Virus record (IMG/VR): IMGVR_UViG_3300022752_000401
Span: 1-23,677 of that record
Source of the DNA: a virus
DNA length: 23,677 nucleotides
Reading direction: 5' to 3' (one strand)
The notes under the pieces are model-generated. The model was not told the DNA's origin. It made no database searches and worked only from the letters and a program-made list of their open reading frames with translations. Positions 2,269 through 23,677 of this stretch are shown here, in pieces. Numbering within the stretch: the first letter of the stretch is position 1; each line of letters starts with the position of its first letter. The translations under genes were made by a program, and so were the position numbers.

Positions 2269-5268
2269 ATGGCAGATAAAATTTTTGGAGTAAAGGGGAT
2301 AAACTTTGTTGGTGACCCTGGTACGCCAACAATTTCTATAGCATCTTCTATCATTACTTATGCGGGAAGTTTAAATCTTAATGCACCTACTGTTGCTATT
2401 AGTACAGATGTTTCCATCGGTGGAAAAGTTGTATCAAATGTAGTTGTATCAGATACTTATTCAGTTGGTATAGGGACCACAGTTCTAACTGAAAAATTAA
2501 ATGTAAGTGGAAACGCAAATATTTCTGGTGTTGTAAGTGCTACTAGTTTTGTTGGTTCTGGTACTAGTTTAACTGGACTATTAACAAATCAATCATCTGG
2601 TATTAATACTAATGCATATCAATATCTTTTAGTCACTCCTCAAAATTCTGGGACTATTTCGACTGTATCATCATCATATAATTATATTACTTTCAATCCT
2701 GCTGCAAATTATCTAGGAATTGGAACAAATACTCCTGCAGCAGGATTGGATGTAAATGGTACTGGTAGATTTATAGGAACTGTTACTGCTCCAACTTTTC
2801 AAGGTACTGCTACTACTGCTACGAATCTTGCTGATGCAGCAAATATAACGACTGGTATTGTTAGTACTGCTAGACTATCTGGAACTTATAATATTAGTAT
2901 TTCAGGAAATGTTGCAGCAGCAACCACTGCTTCCAATTTAACATCAACTGCTAATGTAAACACTAGTGGTATTATAACTGCTACTGGAGGTTTTGTTGGA
3001 AATCTTACAGGAACAGCAACCACTGCCACTGGACTAACTACAACTGCTAGTGTAAACACTACTGGTATTATAACTGCTACTAAATTTGTAGGACCAATTG
3101 AAGGTACTATTACTGGTGTAGCAGATACAGCAAAACAATTACAAAATACAAGATATTTTAGTGTAAGTGGTGATGTTTCTACTGGTTCTTCTGTTGCATT
3201 TAATGGAACTCAAAATGTTGGATTAGCAGTAACTTTAGCACTTTCTGGTGTTACTTCTGCAACTTATGGTTCAAGTACTTCCATTCCATCTATTTCAGTT
3301 AATGCTAAAGGAATTATTACTGGAGTAACCACTACTGGAATTACTGTTGGAAATGGGACATTAGATCTCAAAACATCTGGAACAGGATTATCAGGTATTG
3401 CAACGTTTACTGCAAATCAAGCAACAGGAACTGCAGTTACGTTTACAGTAACATCTGATGCAACAAGTACAAATACAGCAGGAGCAATTGTTGCTCGTGA
3501 TGCAAGTGGAAACTTTAGAGCAGGAATTATTACTGCTACTACTTTCTCTGGAACTGCTACTACTGCTAATAATGTAAGTTCTACTATTAATATTAATACT
3601 TCTGGTATTATAACTGCTACACAATTTTCTACTGGAATCTCAACTCAAAATGTTGGATTTACCACAGGCATTATTAGTGGTCCAAATACAATTTATATTA
3701 ATCCTTATCAAATTGGTGTATCCACAGGAACTGTAAGAATTCTTGGAAATCTTATAGTTGAAGGAACTACAGTTACTGCAGCACAAGCAACCATACAATC
3801 AAGTGCTACAACAATTGGAGTAGCAGTTTCAGAAACAAGTAATATTGTTTTGAATGATGCTGGAATTACGATTGGTTCAACATCAATTCAAAAAACTTTA
3901 CTTTGGAACTATGGTTCAACTGCATTAAAATCAAGTGAAAACTTTAATCTTGCAAATGGAAAAGTTTATCAAATTAATGATAATCCAGTTTTAAGTTCTA
4001 CTACACTTGCAAATAGTGTTACTACTGCTGCTGGTATTACTACTGTTGGAACTCTTCAACAATTAGTTGTTTCTAGTAATACATCAACAGATGCAGTCAG
4101 AATTACTCAAGTTGGTTCTGGAAATGCTTTGGTAGTTGAAGATGAAGCATCCCCAGACGGAACTTCTTTTATTGTAAGTTCTACTGGTTCAATTGGTATT
4201 GGAACTACAATTCCATCATATAAACTTACAATTACCAATAATGCTCTTCCAACTTTAGGATTAACAAATGCGATTGCTGATTTTACTGGTAGTGTAGATG
4301 GTTATACTCAACTTAATATCAGAAACTCTCTTGCTGCCGCAAATGCTTCTTCTGATTTGATTGCTACGGCAGATACTGGGTCTGATACAACTAACTTTAT
4401 TGATTTAGGTATTAATAATAGTGCTTTCTCTTCTGGTTCTTGGACGGTCAATGGAGCATTAGACGGATACTTATATACTTCTGATGGTAGTTTATCAATT
4501 GGTATTGCTACTAATAATACAGCAAAGTATCTTTCATTCTTTGCTGGTGGGGTATTGGCAGCAAATGAACAAGTAAGAATTAATCAAACTGGTGTTGGTA
4601 TAGGTTCTACACAACCAACAGTAAAACTTGATGTTATTGGTGATGCAAAAGTATCGGGCACAATAACTGCTTCTAGTTTCACTGGAAATCTTACTGGTAC
4701 AGCAACTACTGCTAATAACGTAAGTTCTACTATTAATATAAACACTAGTGGTATTATAACTGCTTCTAGTTTCACTGGAAATCTTACTGGTACAGCAACA
4801 ACAGCAACTACTGCTAATAACGTAAGTTCTACTATTAATATTAATACTTCTGGTATTATAACTGCTTCTAGTTTTGTAGGAAACTTAACAGGTACAGCAA
4901 CTACTGCAAATAACGTAAGTTCTACTATTGATATAAACACTAGTGGTATTATAACTGCTACTGATTTTGATTCACTTTCAGATTTCAACTTAAAAACTAA
5001 TATTCATCAAATTGAAGATTCACTTTCAAAAGTAATTCAAATTCGTGGTGTAACTTTCGATTGGAAAGAAACTAATAGGTCTTCTGCTGGTGTCATTGCA
5101 CAAGAAGTTGAGAAAGTATTACCAGAACTTGTAAATGGTGAAGAGATTAAGACAGTCAATTATAATGGTGTGATTGGTGCTTTGGTTGAAGCAGTCAAGG
5201 AACTGAAAGCAGAAAATGATATTCTAAAAGAAAAATTAGACGAAGTTTACAAAAAAGTTTTCGGTTAA
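2269..5268 (+). CDS. Tail fibre protein with C-terminal peptidase S74 chaperone (999 aa)
   Basis: Starts MADKIFGVKGINF and contains four GIGT-type modules (near bases 2464, 2713, 4192 and 4594). A KVYQINDNPVLSSTTL segment lies near residue 565, and a domain with ASSDLIATAD and FIDLGINNSAFSSG motifs spans about 664-777. NNVSSTININTSG repeats occupy about 800-900. The last 96 residues form an S74 domain: SDFNLK at 904-909 gives Ser904 and Lys909, the i+5 spacing of the Ser-Lys pair known from endosialidase-type fibres. It is followed by GVIAQEVEKVLPEL, KTVNYNGVIGALVEA and a coiled-coil tail. In that family the C-terminal domain drives trimer folding and then cleaves just before the Ser, so a mature protein of about 903 residues is inferred. 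A terminator follows immediately. Confidence 0.9.
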   Translation: MADKIFGVKGINFVGDPGTPTISIASSIITYAGSLNLNAPTVAISTDVSIGGKVVSNVVVSDTYSVGIGTTVLTEKLNVSGNANISGVVSATSFVGSGTSLTGLLTNQSSGINTNAYQYLLVTPQNSGTISTVSSSYNYITFNPAANYLGIGTNTPAAGLDVNGTGRFIGTVTAPTFQGTATTATNLADAANITTGIVSTARLSGTYNISISGNVAAATTASNLTSTANVNTSGIITATGGFVGNLTGTATTATGLTTTASVNTTGIITATKFVGPIEGTITGVADTAKQLQNTRYFSVSGDVSTGSSVAFNGTQNVGLAVTLALSGVTSATYGSSTSIPSISVNAKGIITGVTTTGITVGNGTLDLKTSGTGLSGIATFTANQATGTAVTFTVTSDATSTNTAGAIVARDASGNFRAGIITATTFSGTATTANNVSSTININTSGIITATQFSTGISTQNVGFTTGIISGPNTIYINPYQIGVSTGTVRILGNLIVEGTTVTAAQATIQSSATTIGVAVSETSNIVLNDAGITIGSTSIQKTLLWNYGSTALKSSENFNLANGKVYQINDNPVLSSTTLANSVTTAAGITTVGTLQQLVVSSNTSTDAVRITQVGSGNALVVEDEASPDGTSFIVSSTGSIGIGTTIPSYKLTITNNALPTLGLTNAIADFTGSVDGYTQLNIRNSLAAANASSDLIATADTGSDTTNFIDLGINNSAFSSGSWTVNGALDGYLYTSDGSLSIGIATNNTAKYLSFFAGGVLAANEQVRINQTGVGIGSTQPTVKLDVIGDAKVSGTITASSFTGNLTGTATTANNVSSTININTSGIITASSFTGNLTGTATTATTANNVSSTININTSGIITASSFVGNLTGTATTANNVSSTIDINTSGIITATDFDSLSDFNLKTNIHQIEDSLSKVIQIRGVTFDWKETNRSSAGVIAQEVEKVLPELVNGEEIKTVNYNGVIGALVEAVKELKAENDILKEKLDEVYKKVFG
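4660..4965 (+). repeat. Direct repeats of the NNVSSTININTSG module just before the S74 domain
   Basis: Three tandem-like copies encode TATTANNVSSTI(N/D)INTSG-IITA with GNLTGTA linkers. The first copy shares 74 identical bases with the 565-aa gene. The middle copy, 4814-4865, uses the alternative spelling AATATTAATACTTCT and is identical over 52 bases to 20647-20698 in the 2170-aa gene. A single related copy sits near 3565-3620. Confidence 0.85.
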
Positions 5269-5939: not shown

Positions 5940-8900
5940 ATGCCTCTTTCTAGATTAGAAAATTTCTTAAAGAATGCAGAAGGTAATATTCTTTATGTAA
6001 GTCCATCAGATTTTGATGCTACTGATAGTTTTGAAAACCAAGGCAACTCATTAACAAGACCATTTAAAACTATTCAAAGAGCATTAATCGAAGCAGCAAG
6101 ATTTTCATATCAAAACGGAAGAAATAACGATAAGATTGATAGAACTACAATTTTAGTATATCCAGGAACTCACTATATTGATAATAGACCTGGATATTCT
6201 ATTACTTCATCAGGAATCAATCCTGTTTATAAAAAAAGAACAGATGCTACAACTTGGACCACTACAACTCTTGATGAGTTTAGTACAAATACAAATTATG
6301 ATATTTTAGATACAAATAACGATTTATATAAATTTAACTCGGTTAATGGTGGTGTTGTTTTACCTCGTGGTACATCCATTATTGGTTATGATTTAAGAAA
6401 GACAAAAATTCGTCCTCTTTATGTTCCAAATCCAGAAGATGCTACTGTTGAAAATAGTAGTATCTTTAATGTAACTGGTACTTGTTACTTTAGTACATTT
6501 ACATTTTTAGATGCTGATACAACAAAGACAGTATTTAGAGATTATACGGATAATCGTTTTGTTCCTAATTATTCTCACCACAAATTAGTATCATTTGCTT
6601 ATGCAGATGGTGTGAATAAAGTTGTTCTAGGTGGAACAGAACAGACTGATTTAACTGACCTTGATATGTATTATTACAAGGTTGCAAGAGCATATGGTGA
6701 TTTAACTGGTAGAAATGTTGTTGACTATCCAAGTAATAGTGATTTTGAAACTTCTGTTGATGAATATCGTATTGTTGGTTCACTTCAAGCAAATCCTTTT
6801 GGCATTTCATCAATTTATGGTGGCAATGGAGTATCTAATCCAACAAATGTTATTACCGTAACAACTAAAGATTTCTTAACAGGAGATGACAAACCACACG
6901 GATTATCTGTCGATAGTCCTGTTTTGATTTCTGGAATTACAGCAGATGGTGCAGCATTTAATGGTTCATTTACTGTAAAAGAAGTTGTTGGTTTAACGAC
7001 ATTTACTTATACTTCTACTGCAGCACCAGCAAACGCAACTCCAGCAGCAAGTGATTATGAAAGTGGTATTGTAACAATTGAAGCAGATACAGTAAGTTCT
7101 GCTTCTCCTTATGTTTTTAGTTGTTCTATTCGTTCCGTGTATGGTCTTTGTGGAATGTGGGCGGATGGAGCAAAGGCAGATGGATTTAAGTCTATGGTTG
7201 TAGCCCAGTTTACTGGAGTTTCTCTTCAAAAAGATGATAATGCTTTCTTGATTTATGAGAATGGTGCTTATCAAAGTAATGCAACTTTAGATATTAATAG
7301 TACTCAAAGACCATTGCATACAAATGGGAATGCGATTTATAAACCAGATTATGAGAGTACACATATTCGTGTATCAAATAATGGATTCGTTCAGTGTGTT
7401 TCGATTTTCGCAATTGGTTTTGCTAAACACTTTTTAACTGAAAGTGGTGGTGATATGTCTATCACCAACTCAAACTCTAACTTCGGTGCAATTTCTCTTG
7501 AATCAACTGGATTTAGAAATGAGTCATTTGATAGAGATGACGTTGGTTATATTACTCACATTATTCCACCAAAAGAAATTGATGATATTGAAACTGAAGT
7601 TAATTGGTTGTCTTTGGATGTTGCAAAAACAATAGGAGTTGGAAGCACAAATAAATTATACATTTATAATTATAAATCTTTAGATCTAAAACCAATACAT
7701 CAAGTTGATAATTATAGAATTGGGGCAAGAGCAAATGATACTTTAAATCTTATATTTGAGAATACTTATACAACTCCAATTTTAATGCCAGTTCCAAGTG
7801 GAACTGGGGTTTCTTCGAAGAAAATTTATACTGTAACAAGGTCTGGTACACAAAATAATATTACCAATAATACATTCACATTAAATACCAATCATCAACT
7901 TTATAATGGTGAAAGTGTAAGAGTTTTCAGTGATACAAGTCAAGCACCAGATGGAATTGTTTTAGATACTGTATATTATGCAATTACGACAGGATTGGCT
8001 TCAAATGAAATTAAACTTGCATATTCTTTAAATGATGCAATTGCAAATCAACCAATTACATCAATTAATAGTAATGGTGGTATTCTCACAGTTATAAGTT
8101 CTGTATCCGATAAACTCCCAGGTGATTTAGGACATCCTATTCAATATGATACAACACAAAGACAATGGTATATTACTGGAACTGCAACAACTGAAACAAA
8201 TCAAATTTATAATATAATTAATCAACTTGGGACTGGAGGATTTGGCAATCAAACTTCATCAACATTTATAAAAAGAAAATCTAATAATCGTTCAATTGAG
8301 GATAGAATTTATAGAATTCGTTATGTAATTCCAAAAGAATTTACAACTGCAAGACCACCACAGGCAGGATTTGTATTACAAGAAACTAAAACAGTTGGTG
8401 TAAGTACAATTTCGTTTGATAATACATATACTCTTTCTGGTTCAACTCCACCTGCTTATTTGAGAAATGAAAAAATTATCTCAAATGCAACAGTTGGTGC
8501 TGTTTCGAATGGAACACAAACTGTAACAGCAACAACAGAACTTCCACATGGATTTATAGTTGGAGATAAAGTTAAAATCCAAAAAGTTAGAAGTACAAAT
8601 AATCCACTCGGTACTGGTCTAACTTCGACTTATAATGGTTCATATAAGGTTCTTTCAGTTCCAAGTACAAAACAATTTACGTATCAAATTTCTGGTGTAA
8701 AAATCAATCCAGGAACTTATACAAATCTAATTAATGAACGTGATACAAGACAAGAAAGAGACCAATTGCCGTTGGTATCAAGAGAACAATATTCTGGAAA
8801 TTATTTTATTTACAGAGTAAATACAATTAAAAATCACGTTCCAGGAACTGACGGTCAAGATGGAATTTATAATTTGATTGTTCTTGCAGCAAATGTAAGT

Positions 8901-11900
8901 CCACCATCAACAGTTGGATATGGTATTTCACAAAAAGCATTTAATCAAGATGTAAGAAATCTTTATCCACAAATTGACCGTGATAATTTTGTATCAGACC
9001 CAGTTGAAGCAGTTAGTTTTGCTGATATAAAAACATTAGGTAAAGTAGTTACTGGTGATAAGAAAAAATCAGTCACCAAAGAAGCAATTAATAGTTTTGT
9101 AAGAAATACAAGAATTGGTTTTGGAATTACCAATGTAACTTTAAGTGGGACTGGCAACACTACTGTTACAATTTATACAGATGTAGAGCATACATTAAAC
9201 TCATTAAAACAAGTAACAATTTCTGCTGCTGGTGCTGGTTATGGAAATACTACAATCTATGCATCAAATGTTGCTGGTGGTTCTGGTGCAAATGGTTCTG
9301 TAAGAGCAAATTTAGCAGCAGGAACAGTTCAATCTGTAAGTATTGTTGACCCAGGTTGTGCTTATGTAGTTGGAAATACACTTACAGTTTCTGGTCCTCC
9401 TGGAATTACTCCTTCGGTTAATTCAACACTATCAGTTGCAGAAATCAATAATAATGTTGGAGATGGTATTGAACTTTCTGGATTCAATCAAACTGATTTG
9501 AATGGTGTATTTAAGATTTTGAGTGTTACATCCTCTAAATCTTTTACAATTTATAATCCTGCTGGTGTATCTGCATATACTCAAAACACAAATGGAAGAA
9601 TACCAATAGCAGTTTTATCATCAAAAGGAGTTGGGATTACTTCATTCCGTTTTGATACAGCATCGACAGGAATTGTTACTGTTACAACATCATCCGCACA
9701 CGGTTTGATCGTAGGTAATAAATTTACAATTGTTGGAAGCGGTCATACAATTTATGATAATTCTTTCTTTATTAAAGATAATGTTGGTCTCAATACCTTC
9801 ACATTCTATGTCGGTATTGTAACTCAAACAAAAGCATCAACAACAGGAACTCTTCTCAAAGGTGCTATCAGTGCAAATGCACTTAACTTAACCAGAGGAG
9901 AAGAGAATCTTGGTTCAAGAGCATCATACATTTATGCTGGTATTACTACTACGTTAACTACAACATTTACAACTTCTAGTACTTCTGTTGGATTGAGTAG
10001 TGCTGCTGGATTTAATCGTGGTGATTATGTTCTTATTAATGCTGAAATTCTTCGTCTTGCAAGTGCTCCAACTGGAAATACTTTTACAGTTCTTCGAGGG
10101 CAATTTAGTACTTATAAAACAACCGCTGATGTAGGAACTCAAGTTAAGAAAATTAAAGTTCTACCAATGGAGGTTCGTAGACCTTCATTTATGAGAGCAT
10201 CAGGTCATACCTTTGAATATCTTGGTTATGGTCCTGGTAATTATTCAACTGGTATGCCACAAAAGCAATCTAGAACTCTTACTGAAGATGATGTTTTAAC
10301 TTCTCAAGCAAGAGAACAAGCAGGTGGTTCAGTCGTTTATACTGGTATGAACGACTTGGGTGAATTTTATTCAGGAGCTAAAAAATTAAGTTCTGCTACT
10401 GGTGAAGAAAAAGTTATTGATGCACCGATTATTACTTTTACTGGTGACGACGCACAAGGAGAAAATCAAAATAAATTAAGTGGTATTTTTGATGAGGTAC
10501 TTGTTAAAGAAAGAATTACAGTTGAAGGTGGAGAAAATGGAGATCAAAGTTCTCAATTTTATGGTCCTGTAAACTTTACAAAAAAACTTACAAATACTTC
10601 AGAAGAAGGAATATTTACAAAAAATTTATTAATCAAAGGTTCTTCATCACAAGGTAAGTTAATTACTGTTGGGATTTCTACTCCAACAACTACGACTATT
10701 GCTTCTCCTAATGCTGGTGACATTTCATTAAAATCAGACCCAACCAATTATATCGGTCAACTATATGATAAAACTACTGATAAATGGAAGAGATTTGGTT
10801 TAATTAGTAGTTCTGCTGATATTTTAGACATTAAAGTCGATAGACTTGGAATTGGAGATACAAGTGTATTCTCTAATGATGGTGGAGTTGGTGATGCGGA
10901 ATTATATGTTGCAGGAGAGACTAAACTTCAAAATGTAACAATTACTGGAACTACTGCATTTACATCAAACGTTGTATTGAATGATGTTAATTTTGGCAAT
11001 ATTAACATTCAAAAAACTGCAAAATTTAATGGACTTGGTTTAACAACTTCTTATGCAATCTATGTTGATAGTCCAAATGTTAATAATGGTAATACCTCAT
11101 TAAAATCAAGACTTTATGATTTAGAAGTTGCAAATGGCGCTTATGTTCTTGGTTCTGTTGGTATTGGAACTACAAATCCAAGTGCAAAATTAGATGTAAT
11201 TGGTAGTGCAAAGGTTGCAGGAGACTTAACAGTAAATAATGGTGACTTATACATCACTAGAACTGATACTGCAACTGGAGATATTATTGCAAATGGTGGA
11301 ACTGATGGTATTTTTGGAATATCTAACACTACGAATAGTGGTAGCATTTATCTTACTACTAAAAATAGTGGTGGAACTCCAAATAACACTATTACTCTTA
11401 ATTCATCATCAGCAACTGTTAATGGTGGTTTAAATGTTACTTCTAACATTACCAATGGTGGATTTGATTTTATATTAGGAAGTACAGACCAATCGTCAAG
11501 AGGAAATAGTGGAGCATCAAGAGCACTTGTTAAGAGTGGTAATGCATCTCTTGTTCTTAATTACAATGGTGATTTTACTGGTGGTGTCTATGTTGGTAGT
11601 TTTATTGGTGTTGGTGGAACCATTACTGCAACTGTAAATAATACTTTAACAGAAACCAGAGGAAGTCATTTAAGACTTACAAATTCTGGAAGTGGTGGTG
11701 ATGTTGTAATTTCTTGGGATAATAATGCTAGTGGTACTACAAAACAACGTTGGTATGCTGGTATTGATGCGAGTGATTCATATGCTTGGAAACTTGCAAA
11801 ACCAGATACTGCTTATTTTGATAATGAAAGTTTTGATAGAAATCTTGGTGGTGGTAATTTACCAGAAACTAAATTAAAGATTGATACAAGTGGTAATGCA

Positions 11901-13364
11901 ACCTTCCTTGGTGGATTAACTGCTGGTGATGGTTTAACATTAAACACCAATAAGTTTACTGTTGCTGGTGCTACTGGAAATACCACAATTGCTGGTAGTT
12001 TAGATATTGGTTCAAGTTTTAATATTAATGTTTCCAATTCTAATAAGTTTTCAGTAGATACAAGTGGTAATGTAACTAATGCTGGAACTCTTACTGCTAC
12101 TGAAAAAATAAAAACATCTGGAGATTTGGAAGTTGTTGCTGCAGCAACTGTTGGAACTACTCTAGGAGTTACAGGTCAAGTAACTGCATCATCATTTAAA
12201 GTTACTGGTAAAGTAACTCCAGATGACGACCCACTTTTATTAAGAGCATCTGGTATTGCTTCAAAATTAACCAAGACAGAAATTGATGCTGCTGCTGGAT
12301 TTTCAATTCAACCACCAGTTACAAATAGTACCTTACCAAATGGTAATTCAATTCAACTATTATCTTTAACTTTTGATGGAAGTGGTGCAAATGGAACTAG
12401 AACATTTGCACTTAAAAAAGTAGATAATACAGCATTTACTCCAATTAGTGCAGCAAACTTACTTGTATCTGTTGGTGGTATTATACAAAGACCAGATACC
12501 GATTATGTTGTAAATAAAGATGCAAATGGAAATCCATTACCTGGATATATAACATTCCCAGCATCTGCTTGGACCAATCCTCCTGCTGCTGGACTATCTT
12601 GTTTTATTATTGCTTTTGGTGGATTGGGTGGTCTTACCCAAAACCAAGATTGGGATACTGGAGATAAAGGTGTTCTTTTAGTTGGTACTGGAACTGATAA
12701 TTTGGGAGTTAAACTTGGTATTGGTGCAGATAATACAATATTAACTGCTGATAGCACTGCAACATCTGGTGTTGCTTGGAAATCTCCAGCAACACAATCA
12801 CCATCAATACCTTCTGGTGCTAAAGTATTATTCTATCAATCAACAGCACCCACAGGATGGACAAAAGTAACCGATCATGACAATAAAGCATTAAGAGTTG
12901 TATCTGGAACTGGTGGTGGTTCTGGTGGTTCTAGTTCATTTACAAGTGTTTTCACTTCCAGAAAGCCAGAAGGTTCTATAACTGGTGGCACTATAAGTAA
13001 TGGTAGTGCAAGTGGAAGTGTATCTGTAACTCTTTCTGGAAGTACTGAGTACCATTCATTGACTGAAGTACAAATGCCATCTCACTATCATGCATATAGA
13101 GTACGACAATATGGACAGGGTGGTGGAGATACTCAAAAATATGGATTAACTGCAGATATTTTTGATACTGGTTATCTAACGGATTATAGGAATACTGATT
13201 CGAGAGGTTCAGGTCAAGGGCACAAACATAACCTCAGTGGCACCTATAGTGGAAGTTTATCTGGAGTTAGCGTTAGTGGAAATCTTACTGGTGCTTCATT
13301 TAATGGCAGTGAAATGAGTTTTGCAGTCCAATATATTGATGTTATTATTTGCAGCAAGAACTAA
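5940..13364 (+). CDS. Giant tail fibre/adhesin with gp12-like collar tip (2474 aa)
   Basis: Domain order: residues 1-110 carry an N-terminal segment with SLTRPFKTIQRALIEAARF and ILVYPGTHYIDNRPG, the signature of right-handed beta-helix (pectate-lyase-like) proteins. Repeated beta-domains with HGL-x-VG-x-K-x-I and NGSF-x-V motifs lie near 303-360, 637-696, 857-918, 1071-1208 and 1241-1294. They resemble the FCCH-type domain annotated in many phage proteins. A conserved block follows near 1413-1490 (YLGYGPGNYSTGMP, GGSVVYTGMNDLGEFYSG). One VGIGTTNPSAKLDVIG module lies near 1739. The C-terminus, 2290-2474, is a phage collar domain (APTGWTKVTDHDNKALRV) with HYH at 2382-2384 and HKH at 2428-2430, ending QYIDVIICSKN. 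In T4 gp12 and gp37, HxH motifs bind metal in the trimeric receptor tip. I infer a trimeric adhesin; host receptor unknown. Confidence 0.85.
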   Translation: MPLSRLENFLKNAEGNILYVSPSDFDATDSFENQGNSLTRPFKTIQRALIEAARFSYQNGRNNDKIDRTTILVYPGTHYIDNRPGYSITSSGINPVYKKRTDATTWTTTTLDEFSTNTNYDILDTNNDLYKFNSVNGGVVLPRGTSIIGYDLRKTKIRPLYVPNPEDATVENSSIFNVTGTCYFSTFTFLDADTTKTVFRDYTDNRFVPNYSHHKLVSFAYADGVNKVVLGGTEQTDLTDLDMYYYKVARAYGDLTGRNVVDYPSNSDFETSVDEYRIVGSLQANPFGISSIYGGNGVSNPTNVITVTTKDFLTGDDKPHGLSVDSPVLISGITADGAAFNGSFTVKEVVGLTTFTYTSTAAPANATPAASDYESGIVTIEADTVSSASPYVFSCSIRSVYGLCGMWADGAKADGFKSMVVAQFTGVSLQKDDNAFLIYENGAYQSNATLDINSTQRPLHTNGNAIYKPDYESTHIRVSNNGFVQCVSIFAIGFAKHFLTESGGDMSITNSNSNFGAISLESTGFRNESFDRDDVGYITHIIPPKEIDDIETEVNWLSLDVAKTIGVGSTNKLYIYNYKSLDLKPIHQVDNYRIGARANDTLNLIFENTYTTPILMPVPSGTGVSSKKIYTVTRSGTQNNITNNTFTLNTNHQLYNGESVRVFSDTSQAPDGIVLDTVYYAITTGLASNEIKLAYSLNDAIANQPITSINSNGGILTVISSVSDKLPGDLGHPIQYDTTQRQWYITGTATTETNQIYNIINQLGTGGFGNQTSSTFIKRKSNNRSIEDRIYRIRYVIPKEFTTARPPQAGFVLQETKTVGVSTISFDNTYTLSGSTPPAYLRNEKIISNATVGAVSNGTQTVTATTELPHGFIVGDKVKIQKVRSTNNPLGTGLTSTYNGSYKVLSVPSTKQFTYQISGVKINPGTYTNLINERDTRQERDQLPLVSREQYSGNYFIYRVNTIKNHVPGTDGQDGIYNLIVLAANVSPPSTVGYGISQKAFNQDVRNLYPQIDRDNFVSDPVEAVSFADIKTLGKVVTGDKKKSVTKEAINSFVRNTRIGFGITNVTLSGTGNTTVTIYTDVEHTLNSLKQVTISAAGAGYGNTTIYASNVAGGSGANGSVRANLAAGTVQSVSIVDPGCAYVVGNTLTVSGPPGITPSVNSTLSVAEINNNVGDGIELSGFNQTDLNGVFKILSVTSSKSFTIYNPAGVSAYTQNTNGRIPIAVLSSKGVGITSFRFDTASTGIVTVTTSSAHGLIVGNKFTIVGSGHTIYDNSFFIKDNVGLNTFTFYVGIVTQTKASTTGTLLKGAISANALNLTRGEENLGSRASYIYAGITTTLTTTFTTSSTSVGLSSAAGFNRGDYVLINAEILRLASAPTGNTFTVLRGQFSTYKTTADVGTQVKKIKVLPMEVRRPSFMRASGHTFEYLGYGPGNYSTGMPQKQSRTLTEDDVLTSQAREQAGGSVVYTGMNDLGEFYSGAKKLSSATGEEKVIDAPIITFTGDDAQGENQNKLSGIFDEVLVKERITVEGGENGDQSSQFYGPVNFTKKLTNTSEEGIFTKNLLIKGSSSQGKLITVGISTPTTTTIASPNAGDISLKSDPTNYIGQLYDKTTDKWKRFGLISSSADILDIKVDRLGIGDTSVFSNDGGVGDAELYVAGETKLQNVTITGTTAFTSNVVLNDVNFGNINIQKTAKFNGLGLTTSYAIYVDSPNVNNGNTSLKSRLYDLEVANGAYVLGSVGIGTTNPSAKLDVIGSAKVAGDLTVNNGDLYITRTDTATGDIIANGGTDGIFGISNTTNSGSIYLTTKNSGGTPNNTITLNSSSATVNGGLNVTSNITNGGFDFILGSTDQSSRGNSGASRALVKSGNASLVLNYNGDFTGGVYVGSFIGVGGTITATVNNTLTETRGSHLRLTNSGSGGDVVISWDNNASGTTKQRWYAGIDASDSYAWKLAKPDTAYFDNESFDRNLGGGNLPETKLKIDTSGNATFLGGLTAGDGLTLNTNKFTVAGATGNTTIAGSLDIGSSFNINVSNSNKFSVDTSGNVTNAGTLTATEKIKTSGDLEVVAAATVGTTLGVTGQVTASSFKVTGKVTPDDDPLLLRASGIASKLTKTEIDAAAGFSIQPPVTNSTLPNGNSIQLLSLTFDGSGANGTRTFALKKVDNTAFTPISAANLLVSVGGIIQRPDTDYVVNKDANGNPLPGYITFPASAWTNPPAAGLSCFIIAFGGLGGLTQNQDWDTGDKGVLLVGTGTDNLGVKLGIGADNTILTADSTATSGVAWKSPATQSPSIPSGAKVLFYQSTAPTGWTKVTDHDNKALRVVSGTGGGSGGSSSFTSVFTSRKPEGSITGGTISNGSASGSVSVTLSGSTEYHSLTEVQMPSHYHAYRVRQYGQGGGDTQKYGLTADIFDTGYLTDYRNTDSRGSGQGHKHNLSGTYSGSLSGVSVSGNLTGASFNGSEMSFAVQYIDVIICSKN

Positions 13365-14236: not shown

Positions 14237-15055
14237 ATGCCTACCGAAGTACAGATTTATAAAGACGGAACAATTGTTTCTGCAGATATTGCTGATAATG
14301 CAGTTATTGCTACTAAGATTGCTGCTGGTGCTGTAGGAACATCGGTGATTGCTGATAATGCAGTTATTGCTACTAAGATTGCTGCTGGTGCTGTAGGAAC
14401 ATCGGTGATTGCTGATAATGCAGTTATTGCTACTAAGATTGCTGATAATGCTGTGACTGCTTCTAAAATTGCAGCAACACAAGTAAGTAAAAGCTTTTTA
14501 GCAATAGATTCAAATTCTCCATCTGGATTAACTTGGAAGCCTACTATAGAGTTAAATTTACGCAATGGTCAAGGAAGTCTTCTTATTGGTAATTATAATG
14601 TTACTTCTACTCAAACTGAAACTAGAGGAACGGTTTATTCAACATTATCTGCTGCTTTAAATCTTGGTACTACAAACGGTCAAAATTGCATTGGTTTCGT
14701 TTTTGGAACTAGTGTTGTTGGAGGTATTTCTCCAACAGGAACAGCATTTTCAAACTCTGATATAAGACTAAAAGAAAACATAATTCCATTAAAATATGGA
14801 CTAAATGAAATTTTAAATTTAAAACCAAGCTTTTTTAATTTTAAAACAAACAAAAAAGACCGCCAGGTTGGATTGATAGCACAAGAAGTAGAACCTTTTA
14901 TTCCAGAAGCTATTCATATGAATGCAGAAAGTGATATAAAACATCTTTGTTATGATCCAATTGTTACGACTTTAATTAATGCTGTGAAAGAACTTTCATC
15001 AAAATATGATACTCTTCAGAAAAAATTTGATGACTATGTTGCTCAACATCCATAA
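14237..15055 (+). CDS. Short tail fibre protein with S74 chaperone and 20-aa tandem repeats (272 aa)
   Basis: The start is supported by AAGGAG. Residues 18-80 are a repeat region of IADNAVIATKIAAGAVGTSV units, a pattern common in phage fibre shafts. A beta-rich middle (LLIGNYNVTSTQTETRGTVY) leads to the S74 domain at 174-272. SDIRLK gives Ser174 and Lys179, then QVGLIAQEVEPFIPEA, YDPIVTTLINAVKEL and a C-terminal helix (KYDTLQKKFDDYVAQ). It follows the canonical SD-x-RLK-x-NI motif more closely than the two larger S74 proteins, which have SDFNLK and SDINLK, so it belongs to a different S74 subgroup. Cleavage just before Ser174 would leave a mature fibre of about 173 residues. It is much shorter than its neighbours, so it may be an accessory or tip fibre. 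Confidence 0.88.
   Translation: MPTEVQIYKDGTIVSADIADNAVIATKIAAGAVGTSVIADNAVIATKIAAGAVGTSVIADNAVIATKIADNAVTASKIAATQVSKSFLAIDSNSPSGLTWKPTIELNLRNGQGSLLIGNYNVTSTQTETRGTVYSTLSAALNLGTTNGQNCIGFVFGTSVVGGISPTGTAFSNSDIRLKENIIPLKYGLNEILNLKPSFFNFKTNKKDRQVGLIAQEVEPFIPEAIHMNAESDIKHLCYDPIVTTLINAVKELSSKYDTLQKKFDDYVAQHP
14288..14443 (+). repeat. Perfect 60-bp tandem repeat, 2.6 copies
   Basis: Two identical 60-bp units (14288-14347 and 14348-14407) are followed by the first 36 bases of a third. Each encodes a 20-aa unit in frame. The absence of any base difference suggests recent expansion and potential for copy-number change without a frameshift. Confidence 0.95.
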
Positions 15056-15293: not shown

Positions 15294-18200
15294 ATGCCCG
15301 AACAACTACCATTTCGCATTAGACGATCTGCTGTAGAAGGAAAGAGACCACAAAACGCAGATTTAGAGTTAGGTGAGTTAGCTCTTAATACTTTTGAAGG
15401 TCGTTTATTTGCGAAGAAGGATACTGGTGGTGTCGGCATTGGAACGACTGTAGCATTATTAACACCTTGGACGGAAACAGTAGGTGTTGGAATTTATTAT
15501 AATGAAGGAAATGTTGGATTAGGAACGACAAATCCAACAACAAAACTTTTTGTTTCTGGTGATATTAACTTCACAGGAAACTTATATCAAAATGGAAATA
15601 TATTTCAAAGTGGTGGAGGTGGTGGAACTTCATCCCAGTGGGTTACATATGCAGCAGGTATAAGTACCACAAGTAATGTTGGTATTGGAACCACAAATCC
15701 AACATCAAAATTACAAATTAATGGAAGTGTAACTCTTGGTACTGGAAGTACAGATTTAATTAGTATTCCTGGAAGAATCTCTTCAAATTTCTATCCAGAT
15801 GGTGATGGTGTTTATGATGTAGGTAGAGCACCACAAATTGGTTCTGGGGCAAATCGTTGGAAAGATGCTAATTTTACTGGTAAAGGTACATTTGATAGTG
15901 GTGTAAACGCACACGATTTAGAACTTGGTGTAAGTTCTGCGAATTTAATTTATAGTACATCAGGAAATTTAGAATTAAACTCTCAAAGTGGAACAACAAA
16001 TATTGATGATAATGTAACTATATCTGGTAATACTGGTATTGGAACAGTAACACCAACATCAAAACTTCACGTTGTTGGTGATGGAAGATTTACTGGTGTA
16101 GTTACAGCAACTACATTTACTGGAAACTTAACAGGTACAGCAACTACTGCTACTAGTCTTTCAGATGCAGCAAACATAACCACTGGTACTATAAGTTCAT
16201 CTAGATTATCAGGTTCTTATGGTATTTCTATAACAGGTACAGCAACAACAGCAACTAACTTATCTGATGCTGCTAATATCACTACTGGAACCATTAGTAG
16301 TTCTAGATTATCAGGAACTTATGGTATTGATATTATTGGAACTGCTACTACTGCTAATAACTTATCTAATGCTGCTAATATTACTACTGGTACTATAAGT
16401 TCTTCTAGACTTACTGGTTCTTATGGTATATCCATAACAGGTACAGCAACTACTGCTACTAATCTTGCAGATGCTGCTAATATTACTACTGGTACTATCA
16501 ATAAAGATAGAATAACAACAACAAATGCACTTACAGTTCTTGGTGATTTATATGTAAGCAATAATATTTCTTTTGGTGGTACGACAACACAACTTAATTT
16601 GCAACAATTGCAGATTGTTGATGCTGATATTGTATTGGGTATTGGAACTTCTTTTAGTCCAACAGATAATACAGCAAATCATGGTGGGATTGCGATTGCT
16701 TCAACTGAAGGAACACCACTTGTAAGTCTTAATATTGTTCCTGGTGAAACCAACCCTTACACATATAAGAAAATTATGTGGTTTAAGGGTAGTACGATTG
16801 GTGCTGGTCTTACTGATGCTTGGTTATTTAATTATGGTGTTGGTATTGGAAGTACACAAGTACCTAATGGGGTAAGACTTGCTGTTGGTGGAATTCAAAT
16901 GACCGATAGTGCCATTACTGCAACTACATTTACTGGAAACTTAACAGGTACAGCAACTACTGCTACTAACTTATATAATGCTGCTAATATAACTACTGGT
17001 ACTATAAGTTCATCTAGATTATCAGGAACTTATGGTATTGATATTACTGGAACTGCTACTACAGCAACAAATCTATCTAATGCTGCTAATATTACTACTG
17101 GTACTATAAGTTCATCTAGACTTACTGGTTCTTATGGTATTAGTATTACTGGTACAGCAACTACTGCTACTAATCTTACGGATGCAGCAAATATAACTAC
17201 TGGAACCATTAGTAGTTCTAGGTTATCAGGAACTTATGGTATTGATATTACTGGGACTGCTACAACAGCAACAAATCTATCTAATGCTGCTAATATCACT
17301 ACTGGAACCATTAGTAGTTCTAGACTTACTGGTTCTTATGGTATTGATATTACTGGAACTGCTACAACAGCAACTAATTTATCTAATGCTTCTAATATTA
17401 CTACTGGTACTATAAGTTCATCTAGATTATCAGGAACTTATGGTATTTCTATAACAGGTACAGCAACTACTGCTACTAATCTTACGGATGCAGCAAACAT
17501 AACCACTGGTACTATAAGTTCATCTAGATTATCAGGAACTTATGGTATTTCTATAACAGGTACAGCAACTACTGCTACTAATCTTACGGATGCAGCAAAT
17601 ATAACTACTGGAACCATTAGTAGTTCTAGACTTACTGGTTCTTATGGTATTAGTATTACTGGAACTGCTACAACAGCAACCACTGCTCTTGGATTTTCTA
17701 CAACTGCTAGTATTAATACTTCTGGTATTATAACTGCTTTTAGTTTTATAAAATCTAGTGGAACATCAAGTCAGTTCTTAAAAGCAGATGGTTCAGTTGA
17801 TAGTAACACTTATTTAACAACTACTGGTTCTGGAACTGCACTAACAGGTATTGTAACTTCTATTGTTGCTGGAACTGGTATTACTATTTCTGGTTCCACA
17901 GGACAAGTTACTATTAATGCATCAGCATCTGGTGGGTCTTCATCACAATGGACTACATATCCAGCAGGTATAAGTACAACAAGTAATGTTGGTATTGGAA
18001 CGACAAATCCAATTTATAGTTTAGATGTTGCTGCAATACAAATAAGACAAGATGCTGGTTCAAATAACAGAATTGTTTTAAGAGGAACACCAGGTTCTGT
18101 TTCTCGTTGGAGTATTGATAATTTCCAGTCTGGTAATACATTTAGAATTTTTAGAGAAGATGATATAACTGCTGCAAATGGTTCTGTTGCTGTTAGTATT

Positions 18201-21200
18201 AGCACTACTGGAACTTTAACTGCTACTAAATTTTCTGGTGATGGTTCTTTGCTTACAGGTATTACAGCATCAGGTAGTGGTGTTGTAATACAAAATCAAG
18301 GTTCTAATGTTGGAACTGCTGGCACTATAAATTTCAGTACAAATCTAACAGCATCATTTTCGTCTGGTACTGCAACCATATCTCTTTCTAATAATCCTTC
18401 AATCAGTGGAATACTTACAGCAGACCAAGTTTATACATCAAACAATGGTAACGGACAAAATGTAAGAATAGGTGATGATTTTTGGTTGGGTGATGTTAAT
18501 GTAGCAAATACTACACGTTTTTCTGGTGCTCAAGATAGCACCAAAGCTTTTATTATTTTTGGTAGTTCTGATGCTGTTGCTTTAGGTAGAACTGGAACTG
18601 GTCCATTATATTATGGTGGAAATTTTACCTCTGCAGGCATTATAACTGCTTCTCAACTTGTTTCTAATGTAGCACAAGGAACTGCTCCAATAACAGTCGG
18701 TTCTTCTACATTAGTTACTAACTTAAATGCAAACTATTTGAACGGACAAACAAGTTCTTATTATACAAATGCATCAAACTTATCATCAGGTACTGTTCCA
18801 TCTACAAGAATTACTGCATCTTCTGGTGATTTTACAGTAGGAAATAACTTATTTGTAACTGGAACATTAAGTATTGGTGGATCTTCTGTAATCTTAAATG
18901 CTACACAAGTACAAATTAAAGATAAAGATATTGTAGTTGGATATACAACTGACCCATCTACTGGTGCTGATATTTCTAATGATGATACTGCAAATCACGG
19001 TGGTATTGCAGTCGCAAGTACAGTAGGAAGTCCACTCATCAATATTCCACTTCAAGTTGGAATTAATAGCAATCCATCCACATATAAACAATTGATGTGG
19101 ATTAAAGCAGGTAATTACTCTGGATGGGGTACTGATAGTTGGTTAACAAATTATCCAATTTCAATTGGAACTACTGTTATTCAAAATAATAGTAGATTGA
19201 CCGTTGGGTCTGGATTTACTGTTTATGATACTTACCTTGATACGACAGATATTAAAGCAAGAAATATTAATGCAACTGGTATTATAACAGCATCAAGTTT
19301 TTCTGGTAATGCTTCAAGTGCAACTTATGCTACAACAGCAGGAATAGCAACTTATGCTACTTCTAGTGGTATTTCTACTTATGCTACTAACGCAGGAGTT
19401 TCTACATCAGTTATTGGTGGTATTGCTTCTGTAACTCAATTAAGTGTTTCTGGTATTTCTACATTCTCAGGAATAACAACTCATACAGAATTATTATTTG
19501 GAACTCAAGCAAGTTTTACTGGTATCGTAACGGCAAGTTCATTTGTAGGAAATCTTAGTGGAAATGCAACATCGGCATCATTAATTAATGCTAGTGCAGC
19601 AAGTGCAAATTTTGTATATTCTCCAGTTCTTGTAAATGTCACTGGAGTAAATACAATTCCTTGGACTGATACCAACCTGATTTGGAATCCAAGTACTAAT
19701 ATTCTTGGTATTGGAACTACCGCAGTATCAGGAACATCAAATCAAAATCTTCAAGTTTATGGTGGTGCTTACATAAAAGGAAATATTGGACTTGGAGTTA
19801 CAACTCCTGCTTATGCAGTTGATACGACAGGAACAATCAGAAGTACTTGGACACCTACTAATGGTGTTCCAGCATTATGGGCATCTGGCACTACTCTTCA
19901 AACTAACTCAAAAACAGGAACTGCTGTTATTGGAACTCTCATTAGTTATAATGATAAGAGTATGCTTTTGACTGCTGCAGATAGTCAAAATGCATATGTG
20001 CAAGTTGTACTTCAAAATACAAATAGTGGTGTTAATGCCTCTTCTGACTTTGTTGTTAATAATGATGTATCATCAGTAAATGATAGTTATCTTGATCTTG
20101 GTATGAATGGCAGTGGGTATAGTGCTTCACCAGCATATGCCTTTGATACTCCTGGTGGAGCATATCTTTATGCAACATCTGTTTGGAATGCGAATGGTAC
20201 TTCTGTAACAACACCAGTTTCTTTTGCGATTGGTACTCAAGACAGTGGTGATGTTATAATTGCAACAGGAAGTGTAGGCAGTGGACTTCCATCTCAAACA
20301 TTTAGTGGTTTGCCTCTACCAAGAATTACTGTTAAAGGACTTACTGGTTTGGTTGGTATTGGATCTACTCAACCAACATCAACACTTACAGTTACTGGTA
20401 ATGCATTATTTAATGGAACTGGTATTATAACTGCTTCTCAACTTATTTCCAACGTAGCACAAGGAACTGCTCCAATAACAGTTGGTTCTTCTACATTAGT
20501 CACTAATTTAAATGCAAATTATTTAAACGGACAACCTGATACTTATTATACAAATGCAGGAAATTTAACTGGTACTATAAGTTCTTCTAGATTATCAGGA
20601 ACTTATGGCATCTCTATAACAGGTACAGCAACTACTGCAACCACTTCTAATAACGTAAGTTCTACTATTAATATTAATACTTCTGGTATTATAACTGCAA
20701 CAGAATTAGACTTAACTGGAAATGCGGCAACAGATAATAGTATTCTTTACTTATCTGGTGCTCCACTTGGAACAAGCACCAAAAATGGACTTTTAGGTAT
20801 AGGGCAACTTAATTTTAGTGATACTGATATTGTTGCTGACTTTACACACAATGTGAATAGTTACGCACAAGTAATTTTACAAAATAAAAATAGTGGAGCA
20901 AGTGCTTCAAGTGATTTTATTGTAAACAATGACCGTACTGCGGGCACAACATATTATGGTGACTTTGGTATTAATGGAACTACTTTCTCTGGTGGTGGTC
21001 CATTTGGAGACCCCGATGGTACTTATCTTTATTCTGCTGGTGGTACTCTTGCAGTTGGAACTAATGATGCAAAAGATTTTAGAATAGCAACTGGTAGCAC
21101 AACAGCAACACCAGTCACCAGAATGACAATTACTGGCATTGGTGGTTCTGTTGGTGTGGGAACTACATTACCATCACAATCTCTACACGTTCAAGGAAAT

Positions 21201-21806
21201 GTAAGAATTACTGGTGGTCTTTACGATTTTAACAATAATGTAGGAACTGCTGGTTCTGTTCTTTCCTCTACTGGTTCTGGTCTTTCTTGGATTGCTGCTG
21301 CTTCTGGTAGTTCTAACGTTTCAATTTCTACAAACACTACAAACCAATCACAATATCTAACTTATGTAACTGGAACTGGTTCTACAACTGGACTTGGTGT
21401 ATCTACAACAGGTCTTGTATTTAATCCTTCAACTAGTAATTTTGGTATAGGAACTGCAACTCCAACATCAACTTTACACGTTGTTGGTGGTGTATTAGTT
21501 ACTGGTGTTACAACTTCTACTGACTTCAACTCCTCATCAGACATCAATCTCAAAAATAATATTCAAAGAATTGAAAATCCAATTGATAAAGTTCTCCAAT
21601 TGGATGGTGTGACTTTTAATTGGAAATCAAATCAACGTCCATCAGTAGGTGTAATCGCACAACAAGTTGAAAAGGTTTTACCACAACTTGTAAGTGGTGA
21701 ATATTCCAAGACGGTTAATTATAATGGATTGATTGGATTATTAATTGAAGCAATTAAGGAACAACAGAAGGAAATAGAAGTTCTCAAAAAATACTTGAAT
21801 AAATAA
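15294..21806 (+). CDS. Giant tail fibre with 34-aa repeat arrays and C-terminal S74 chaperone (2170 aa)
   Basis: The N-terminus (MPEQLPFRIRRS ... DLELGELALNTFEGRLFAKKD) matches the attachment-type start of many phage fibres, with its LGELALN and GRLF motifs. At least eight GIGT-type modules follow. Arrays of a 34-aa GTATTATNLSDAANITTGTI-type repeat occupy residues 281-402 and 552-789. Three other modules are duplicated: DI(V)LG/DIVVG ... DTANHGGIA-x-AS near 436-535 and 1205-1308; SQL(V/I)SNVAQGTAPITVGS near 1118 and 1713; ASSDF(V/I)VNND near 1561-1695 and 1841-1960. Residues 2082-2170 form the S74 domain: SDINLK (Ser2082, Lys2087), GVIAQQVEKVLPQL, KTVNYNGLIGLL and a helical end. Self-cleavage before Ser2082 is inferred from the family. 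The final domain is a clear paralogue of that in the 999-aa fibre. Confidence 0.9.
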   Translation: MPEQLPFRIRRSAVEGKRPQNADLELGELALNTFEGRLFAKKDTGGVGIGTTVALLTPWTETVGVGIYYNEGNVGLGTTNPTTKLFVSGDINFTGNLYQNGNIFQSGGGGGTSSQWVTYAAGISTTSNVGIGTTNPTSKLQINGSVTLGTGSTDLISIPGRISSNFYPDGDGVYDVGRAPQIGSGANRWKDANFTGKGTFDSGVNAHDLELGVSSANLIYSTSGNLELNSQSGTTNIDDNVTISGNTGIGTVTPTSKLHVVGDGRFTGVVTATTFTGNLTGTATTATSLSDAANITTGTISSSRLSGSYGISITGTATTATNLSDAANITTGTISSSRLSGTYGIDIIGTATTANNLSNAANITTGTISSSRLTGSYGISITGTATTATNLADAANITTGTINKDRITTTNALTVLGDLYVSNNISFGGTTTQLNLQQLQIVDADIVLGIGTSFSPTDNTANHGGIAIASTEGTPLVSLNIVPGETNPYTYKKIMWFKGSTIGAGLTDAWLFNYGVGIGSTQVPNGVRLAVGGIQMTDSAITATTFTGNLTGTATTATNLYNAANITTGTISSSRLSGTYGIDITGTATTATNLSNAANITTGTISSSRLTGSYGISITGTATTATNLTDAANITTGTISSSRLSGTYGIDITGTATTATNLSNAANITTGTISSSRLTGSYGIDITGTATTATNLSNASNITTGTISSSRLSGTYGISITGTATTATNLTDAANITTGTISSSRLSGTYGISITGTATTATNLTDAANITTGTISSSRLTGSYGISITGTATTATTALGFSTTASINTSGIITAFSFIKSSGTSSQFLKADGSVDSNTYLTTTGSGTALTGIVTSIVAGTGITISGSTGQVTINASASGGSSSQWTTYPAGISTTSNVGIGTTNPIYSLDVAAIQIRQDAGSNNRIVLRGTPGSVSRWSIDNFQSGNTFRIFREDDITAANGSVAVSISTTGTLTATKFSGDGSLLTGITASGSGVVIQNQGSNVGTAGTINFSTNLTASFSSGTATISLSNNPSISGILTADQVYTSNNGNGQNVRIGDDFWLGDVNVANTTRFSGAQDSTKAFIIFGSSDAVALGRTGTGPLYYGGNFTSAGIITASQLVSNVAQGTAPITVGSSTLVTNLNANYLNGQTSSYYTNASNLSSGTVPSTRITASSGDFTVGNNLFVTGTLSIGGSSVILNATQVQIKDKDIVVGYTTDPSTGADISNDDTANHGGIAVASTVGSPLINIPLQVGINSNPSTYKQLMWIKAGNYSGWGTDSWLTNYPISIGTTVIQNNSRLTVGSGFTVYDTYLDTTDIKARNINATGIITASSFSGNASSATYATTAGIATYATSSGISTYATNAGVSTSVIGGIASVTQLSVSGISTFSGITTHTELLFGTQASFTGIVTASSFVGNLSGNATSASLINASAASANFVYSPVLVNVTGVNTIPWTDTNLIWNPSTNILGIGTTAVSGTSNQNLQVYGGAYIKGNIGLGVTTPAYAVDTTGTIRSTWTPTNGVPALWASGTTLQTNSKTGTAVIGTLISYNDKSMLLTAADSQNAYVQVVLQNTNSGVNASSDFVVNNDVSSVNDSYLDLGMNGSGYSASPAYAFDTPGGAYLYATSVWNANGTSVTTPVSFAIGTQDSGDVIIATGSVGSGLPSQTFSGLPLPRITVKGLTGLVGIGSTQPTSTLTVTGNALFNGTGIITASQLISNVAQGTAPITVGSSTLVTNLNANYLNGQPDTYYTNAGNLTGTISSSRLSGTYGISITGTATTATTSNNVSSTININTSGIITATELDLTGNAATDNSILYLSGAPLGTSTKNGLLGIGQLNFSDTDIVADFTHNVNSYAQVILQNKNSGASASSDFIVNNDRTAGTTYYGDFGINGTTFSGGGPFGDPDGTYLYSAGGTLAVGTNDAKDFRIATGSTTATPVTRMTITGIGGSVGVGTTLPSQSLHVQGNVRITGGLYDFNNNVGTAGSVLSSTGSGLSWIAAASGSSNVSISTNTTNQSQYLTYVTGTGSTTGLGVSTTGLVFNPSTSNFGIGTATPTSTLHVVGGVLVTGVTTSTDFNSSSDINLKNNIQRIENPIDKVLQLDGVTFNWKSNQRPSVGVIAQQVEKVLPQLVSGEYSKTVNYNGLIGLLIEAIKEQQKEIEVLKKYLNK
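16134..16499 (+). repeat. Array 1 of the 102-bp (34-aa) fibre repeat, about 3.6 units
   Basis: Units start at 16134, 16236, 16338 and 16440, exactly 102 bases apart. Each encodes GTATTA(T/N)-x-L-x-(D/N)AANITTGTI followed by SSSRL(S/T)G(T/S)YGI-x-I. The fourth unit departs after GTI into NKDRI. Amino acids are conserved while codons vary between units. Confidence 0.95.
16947..17681 (+). repeat. Array 2 of the 102-bp (34-aa) fibre repeat, seven full units plus a short eighth
   Basis: Units start at 16947 and every 102 bases to 17559; an eighth begins at 17661 and leaves the pattern after GTATTATT. The stretch 17403-17497 is identical over 95 bases to 17505-17599. LSGTYG and LTGSYG variants, and two synonymous spellings of each sub-segment, are shuffled between units. 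Confidence 0.95.
18645..18749 (+). repeat. Dispersed direct repeat, copy 1 (partner 20430-20534)
   Basis: Encodes TASQLVSNVAQGTAPITVGS through LNANYLNGQ. The 105-base partner at 20430-20534 encodes the same residues except Val to Ile, with scattered synonymous changes. The two copies are 1785 bases apart in one gene. Confidence 0.9.
20430..20534 (+). repeat. Dispersed direct repeat, copy 2 (partner 18645-18749)
   Basis: Same module as copy 1. It is followed here by a partial 102-bp-type unit (GTISSSRLSGTYGISIT) and then a NNVSSTININTSG module, so three repeat families meet in this short stretch. Confidence 0.9.
21799..21805 (+). promoter_or_regulatory. Late-type promoter box ATAAATA overlapping the 2170-aa stop
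   Basis: ATAAATAACTAAAA (21799-21812) contains the TAA stop of the fibre gene at 21804-21806 and lies about 24 bases before the ATG at 21830. The same 14-base string occurs at 2249-2262. Confidence 0.6.
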
Positions 21807-23413: not shown

Positions 23414-23677
23414 ATGAGTCTTCTTATATCATTGCCTTGTTATGGTGGATTGGTGAATGAAAAAACCACAACATCACTTTTCAATCTTGGTAAACTTTTA
23501 GTTCGTAATAACATAGACCACGGCATTATGACTGTGGCAAATGAGTCCTTGATTACTCACGGACGGTCAAGAATTGCAAACTTCTTTATGAATAATACAG
23601 AGTTTGAATATTTGTTCTGTCTGGATGCTGATGTTGCATTTTTGCCAGAAGATATGTTGCAATTGTATTCTTATCAA
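23414..23677 (+). CDS. Glycosyltransferase-like protein, 5' part only
   Basis: Starts MSLLISLPCYGGLVNEKTTT three bases after the previous stop and is open to the window edge (88 codons seen). The chain ISLPCYGG ... HGRSRIANFFM ... YLFCLDADVAF fits the N-terminal half of a GT-A fold. LDADV would be the DxD-type motif that binds metal and nucleotide-sugar. Such genes are common in T4-like cyanophages and may modify virion proteins, host surface polymers or DNA; the substrate cannot be told here. No ribosome binding site is obvious, so translation may be coupled to the 526-aa gene. The 3' end is missing because the window ends. Confidence 0.75.
   Translation, partial: MSLLISLPCYGGLVNEKTTTSLFNLGKLLVRNNIDHGIMTVANESLITHGRSRIANFFMNNTEFEYLFCLDADVAFLPEDMLQLYSYQ

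Follow-up and report, generated by a model that had tools for sequence, protein, structure and literature searches.

Synonymous mosaicism in the 34-residue repeat arrays of a predicted cyanophage tail-fibre gene points to recombination between repeat units

How can the tandem units of a phage protein stay alike in amino acid sequence while their codons appear to have been shuffled from unit to unit? The question is raised by the window analysed here, a stretch of 23,677 b that is a complete IMG/VR virus record and is AT-rich in base composition (about 35% GC). Three of its ORFs end in a Peptidase_S74 domain, and the first 1020 aa of the large neighbouring fibre ORF at 5940–13364 matched 460 phage records, all of cyanophages or marine viruses; on the strength of these matches and the three S74-ending ORFs, the window is identified as a predicted cluster of tail-fibre genes from a T4-like cyanophage. 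The repeats lie in an ORF of 2170 aa at 15294–21806 on the + strand, which is also the strand of all repeat-unit features given below. Its C-terminus carries Peptidase_S74 (PF13884, E 2.2e-15, aa 2082–2133), and its best PDB sequence match was 6f45, “Long tail fiber distal subunit”, over aa 2071–2169. The product is a predicted phage tail fibre of the S74 (intramolecular chaperone) type. A smaller S74 fibre ORF at 14237–15055 contains a perfect tandem repeat of 60 b at 14288–14472 (2.6 copies, 100% matches), and the ORF at 23414–23677 is incomplete at the end of the window, its N-terminal part being glycosyltransferase-like by eye (MSLLISLPCYGGLVNEKTTTS).

The repeat unit, read directly from the sequence, is 34 aa (102 b) long with the consensus GTATTATNLSDAANITTGTISSSRLSGTYGISIT. 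The original prediction had described a single repeat stretch at 16134–17681; the coordinates were correct, but the units form two arrays split by a 405-bp unique domain. Array A consists of three full 34-aa (102-b) units, A1–A3 (16134–16439), followed by unit A4 (16440–16541), whose first half is canonical and whose second half is divergent (INKDRITTTNALTVL), forming the junction to the non-repeat domain (16542–16946; GDLYVSNNISFGG...). Array B comprises seven full 34-aa units with mosaic codons, B1–B7 (16947–17660), and an extra half unit, B8, which starts with GTATTAT at 17661–17681 before the sequence becomes TALGFSTTASINTSGIIT; with this trailing half unit the array spans 16947–17762. The eleven units of the prediction correspond to A1–A3, the half-divergent A4 and B1–B7. 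The last 30 b of the non-repeat domain repeat the leader that precedes array A, and the domain itself is a cassette that recurs in numerous phage fibre genes, adjoined by arrays in some cases and not in others. A4-type units also occur singly before homologous domains in other phages, the divergent unit alone preceding the domain in contig L175 and one such unit preceding it in other fibre contexts in L170–L174. Relatives of the domain were observed in 210 IMG/VR stretches and several fibre gene contexts, often after one divergent A4-type unit. Outside the arrays, lone unit copies lie at 20536–20641 of the same ORF (TGTISSSRLSGTYGISITGTATTAT; 85% DNA identity to the array) and at 2802–2925 in the neighbouring fibre ORF 2269–5268.

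Between units of the window arrays, pS was 0.47 and pN 0.09 (pN/pS 0.19), indicating that the protein is conserved and the codons are variable. These values and the mosaic tests described below bear out the prediction of arrays with a conserved protein and shuffled codons; its detailed spellings fared unevenly. For TGTISS, both proposed spellings were present, ACT GGT ACT ATA AGT TCA in five units and ACT GGA ACC ATT AGT AGT in four. For GTATTAT, GGT ACA GCA ACT ACT GCT was found in 6 of the 11 units, but the exact second spelling, GGA ACT GCT ACA ACA GCA ACA, was found in none of the 11; its near forms begin with GGG (B4) or finish with ACT (B5), and A2, A3 and B2 are hybrids. Likewise, “about two spellings per segment” describes codons 1–3 and 18–22, which have essentially two, but codons 7–11, 12–16 and 31–34 have three to five. 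The amino acid variants LSGTYG and LTGSYG, as read from the sequence, make surface variation possible. A diversity-generating retroelement target was considered and rejected because the variation is mostly synonymous (pN/pS 0.19) and block-linked, not adenine-directed and non-synonymous.

Site-compatibility analysis of the 10 full units of the window indicated that 92% of informative site pairs 1–6 b apart were compatible with one tree, versus 13% of those 51–102 b apart. A PHI-like permutation test on the window units gave p = 0.0002, remaining at p ≤ 0.0006 when only codons with an invariant amino acid (synonymous-only) were used, and the Hudson–Kaplan minimum was six recombination events. 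No single tree fitted the unit when it was divided into thirds, every third rejecting the trees of the other two (AU p < 0.001). When each unit was pieced together from stretches found identical and in the same register in its sister units, 59 segments were needed, versus 112 ± 4.5 with codons permuted within columns. Single units show the same structure: B7 equals B3 over bases 1–71 and B2 over bases 72–102, and A1 and B6 show only five differences though they lie in different arrays. The predicted exact duplication one period away was also found, 17403–17497 being identical to 17505–17599 at a distance of 102; at 95 b it exceeds every other exact repeat of the window, and a further exact pair of 71 b links 17151 and 17559. 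The 95-b duplication extends from mid-B5 to mid-B6, as expected from a one-unit tandem duplication with the crossover inside units.

Shuffling of this kind might be mimicked without any recombination if units drifted independently at synonymous sites and converged on favoured A- or T-ending codons. The AT-rich genome (about 35% GC) is consistent with such convergence, as is a pS of 0.47 that is not far under the 0.59 of random codon choice, so that homoplasy is expected. Drift with convergence, however, gives no compatibility that decays with distance, and in no-recombination simulations at equal divergence (60 at each of three divergences, 180 in total) z reached a minimum of −2.9, versus −5.6 observed in the window. 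This shortfall excludes convergent codon choice as the main cause in the window, and we consider an account without recombination extremely improbable.

The closest relative found, L001 (IMGVR 3300044608_000900), shares about 88% DNA identity with the window over 7.8 kb of the cluster and was the only match to the DNA pattern of the array A leader; a DNA pattern search for same-species contigs found none. Array A of L001 has five full units and one divergent unit (window: three and one), and in its array B five units precede a single NNVSST-type unit of 102 b, after which come three more (window: seven full and a half). This NNVSST-type unit is a member of the repeat family seen in neighbouring fibre genes. 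Neither the number nor the order of units is therefore fixed among relatives. The units of L001 are mosaic as well (p = 0.0003) and use the same spellings as the window, with no correspondence in unit order, and its two arrays have in common a 203-b exact copy, 1,527 b apart. Together, the conflicting trees and the changed unit number and order in this relative uphold the predicted recombination between units.

More distant relatives showed the pattern to differing degrees. In L250, the homologue of window ORF 2269–5268 carries a 7-unit array of 93-b units with a nearly identical peptide where the window has one unit; it uses two spellings, close to those of the window, and includes adjacent identical unit pairs. 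The cultured Synechococcus phage S-SKS1 has the same 34-aa unit in five, then two, then about two tandem copies, with exact copies up to 100 b. Its mosaicism is weaker (p = 0.018 for nearest-neighbour sites, 0.041 and 0.10 in wider windows), and no mosaic signal was found among the six units of L092. The sponge-source isolates Sf-CH5 and Sf-CH8, 99.4% identical with one gap, showed no dense 102-b array and no copy-number contrast. In these near-identical sponge-derived phages (L088 6539–10410 versus L090 6539–10411, one gap), the fibre gene is annotated in two pieces in Sf-CH5 and in one in Sf-CH8. In L250, the 93-b array at 1448–2116 is followed at 2767–4502 by 36-b and 27-b CAAGGT-type repeats, collagen-like in look.

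The best cases, the window and L001, are both IMG/VR metagenome assemblies, in which short-read contigs mis-joined inside a repeat array could produce both the mosaic and the unit number. The 203-b exact repeat of L001 and the exact adjacent units of L250 are poorly resolved by short reads. The longest exact repeat of the window, by comparison, is 95 b, short enough for usual assemblies; a usual long k-mer or read exceeds this length, so the path through the repeats is resolvable. Moreover, mis-joins would be expected to swap long stretches between common words rather than 20-b blocks, and the similar, if weaker, mosaicism of cultured S-SKS1 indicates that assembly error is not its general cause. 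We therefore regard an assembly artefact as very unlikely.

The explanation that we favour, and hold to be highly probable, is register-keeping unequal crossing-over together with gene conversion in the tail-fibre repeat arrays. Purifying selection on the protein would keep the 34-aa units alike, while misaligned copies would undergo homologous recombination, both inside one array and from one array to the other, and occasionally with segments of other fibre genes that resemble the unit. In-register unequal crossing-over would add or remove whole 102-b units with the frame intact, and gene conversion or template switching within units would re-combine old synonymous spellings. The natural candidate for the molecular route in this phage would be recombination-dependent replication, the obvious engine of such exchange among relatives of T4. 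Slipped-strand mispairing during replication, in place of recombination between distant copies, would account for the one-unit duplication at 17403/17505 and for the exact adjacent units of L250. It fails on exchange between arrays across the 405-b domain (the 203-b copy of L001 at 1,527 b; A1 and B6 with their five differences) and on the NNVSST unit within the L001 array. As the explanation of the whole pattern slippage is unlikely; it may contribute alongside recombination.

The spellings appear to be old. Within-array pS was 0.47 in the window and in L001, equal to the pS of 0.47 between units of the two phages, while orthologous flanks gave 0.28–0.39. Because diversity within arrays is as great as that between phages, the spellings are apparently older than the divergence of the window and L001, unless arrays mutate or import faster than the flanks. 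The original prediction traced the units to two ancestral cassettes. Exactly two did not hold up, given the three to five spellings at codons 7–11, 12–16 and 31–34, and the occurrence of the spellings in other phages and fibre genes means that two founders of the window array are not required. Homogenisation is weak, since units differed at 19.7 and 18.5 positions within the two genomes versus 20.1 between the window and L001; the marked within-genome likeness of concerted evolution, typical but not required, was not found. Genome-specific differences were single changes only, such as LTG in the window versus LSG in L001. At codon 26, all four CTT-linked copies of the window have ACT, versus AGT or TCA, and never ACT, in all 13 copies of L001, which shows that single changes do spread among units.

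It had also been suggested that selection against perfect DNA repeats, which otherwise delete units, keeps the synonymous spellings. Synonymous diversity in the array does exceed that of the orthologous flanks (0.47 versus 0.28–0.39), and related-array spellings differ even at serine codons without a one-step synonymous interchange. Neighbouring units differed from each other slightly more than randomly drawn pairs did, but the excess was not clear (p = 0.15 for the window, 0.05 for L001 and 0.38 for S-SKS1). Against such selection, L250 contains exact adjacent duplicates, exact copies of 95–203 b occur in the window, S-SKS1 and L001, and the pS of 0.47 is not above the 0.59 of random codon choice. 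Long perfect repeats also make a contig less likely to be assembled, a sampling bias that would mimic such selection. The suggestion thus finds no clear backing, and we rate it as quite unlikely. With equally low probability, DNA-level selection on synonymous sites would have kept the few discrete spellings for long across phages and fibre genes, the unlike DNA shielding the arrays from collapse.

The repeat region is part of the tail-fibre protein and probably of its shaft, judging from its context and its composition. For four units, AlphaFold2 produced no usable fold (eight-row alignment, pLDDT 58), and a unit-domain-unit stretch reached pLDDT 30, so that the term shaft rests on context. 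A PDB sequence search with the array returned chance-level matches only, and a tblastn search of phages with it had no hits, probably owing to low-complexity filtering. Pfam matches on the array (HTH_psq, Flagellin_D3, CSTF1_dimer) were short, marginal and biologically implausible and were rejected. Shaft length could vary, as predicted, unit number differing between the window and L001, and such changes may affect fibre length or host binding.

Known systems share parts of this picture. In the Xanthomonas phages OP1, Xp10 and Xop411 and in T4, duplication or deletion of tail-fibre domains has been associated with altered host range (Inoue 2006; Tetart 1996; both as cited in PMC2248197). There, as here, the number of repeats in a fibre gene differs between close phages; those cases involve a few copies of N-terminal or adhesin domains, whereas the window has eleven units with fine synonymous mosaicism. 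The Plasmodium circumsporozoite gene has synonymous repeat allotypes that were attributed to slipped-strand mispairing (PMC3729580). It resembles the arrays in having tandem units of similar peptide in several spellings, with order and number varying by duplication and deletion, but its product is a surface antigen of a eukaryote, its units are far shorter, and the likeness is in mode of evolution only. The shafts of T4 gp34, gp12 and gp37 contain quasi-repeats, motifs tens of residues long along the fibre rod (PMC3004832). Repeated motifs common to several fibre genes are likewise found here, but the 34-aa unit has no sequence match to any solved fibre repeat in the PDB sequence search. The S-SKS1 fibre protein AGH31523.1 has the same 34-aa unit in tandem and the same kind of mosaic, but its unit reads TISSDRLTGSYDIDIT, with other codon spellings and lower synonymous diversity (0.26). 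The literature searched, itself limited in extent, contained no account of these cyanophage arrays. The locus is a clear but ordinary case of repeat recombination; changes in fibre domain number and synonymous repeat types are known elsewhere. Its synonymous blocks serve as natural markers that trace exchange between fibre repeat units, unconfounded by protein selection, and they show that a marine phage group can alter the number of its fibre repeats in whole-unit, frame-keeping steps.

A second repeat family, NNVSST, is present in the window with two linked spellings, ATA AAC ACT AGT and ATT AAT ACT TCT, its sites being too few for a mosaic test. Members of this family (NNVSSTININTSGIITA) occur at 1138, 1255, 1348, 3568, 4714, 4816, 4909 and 20649, across three fibre ORFs.
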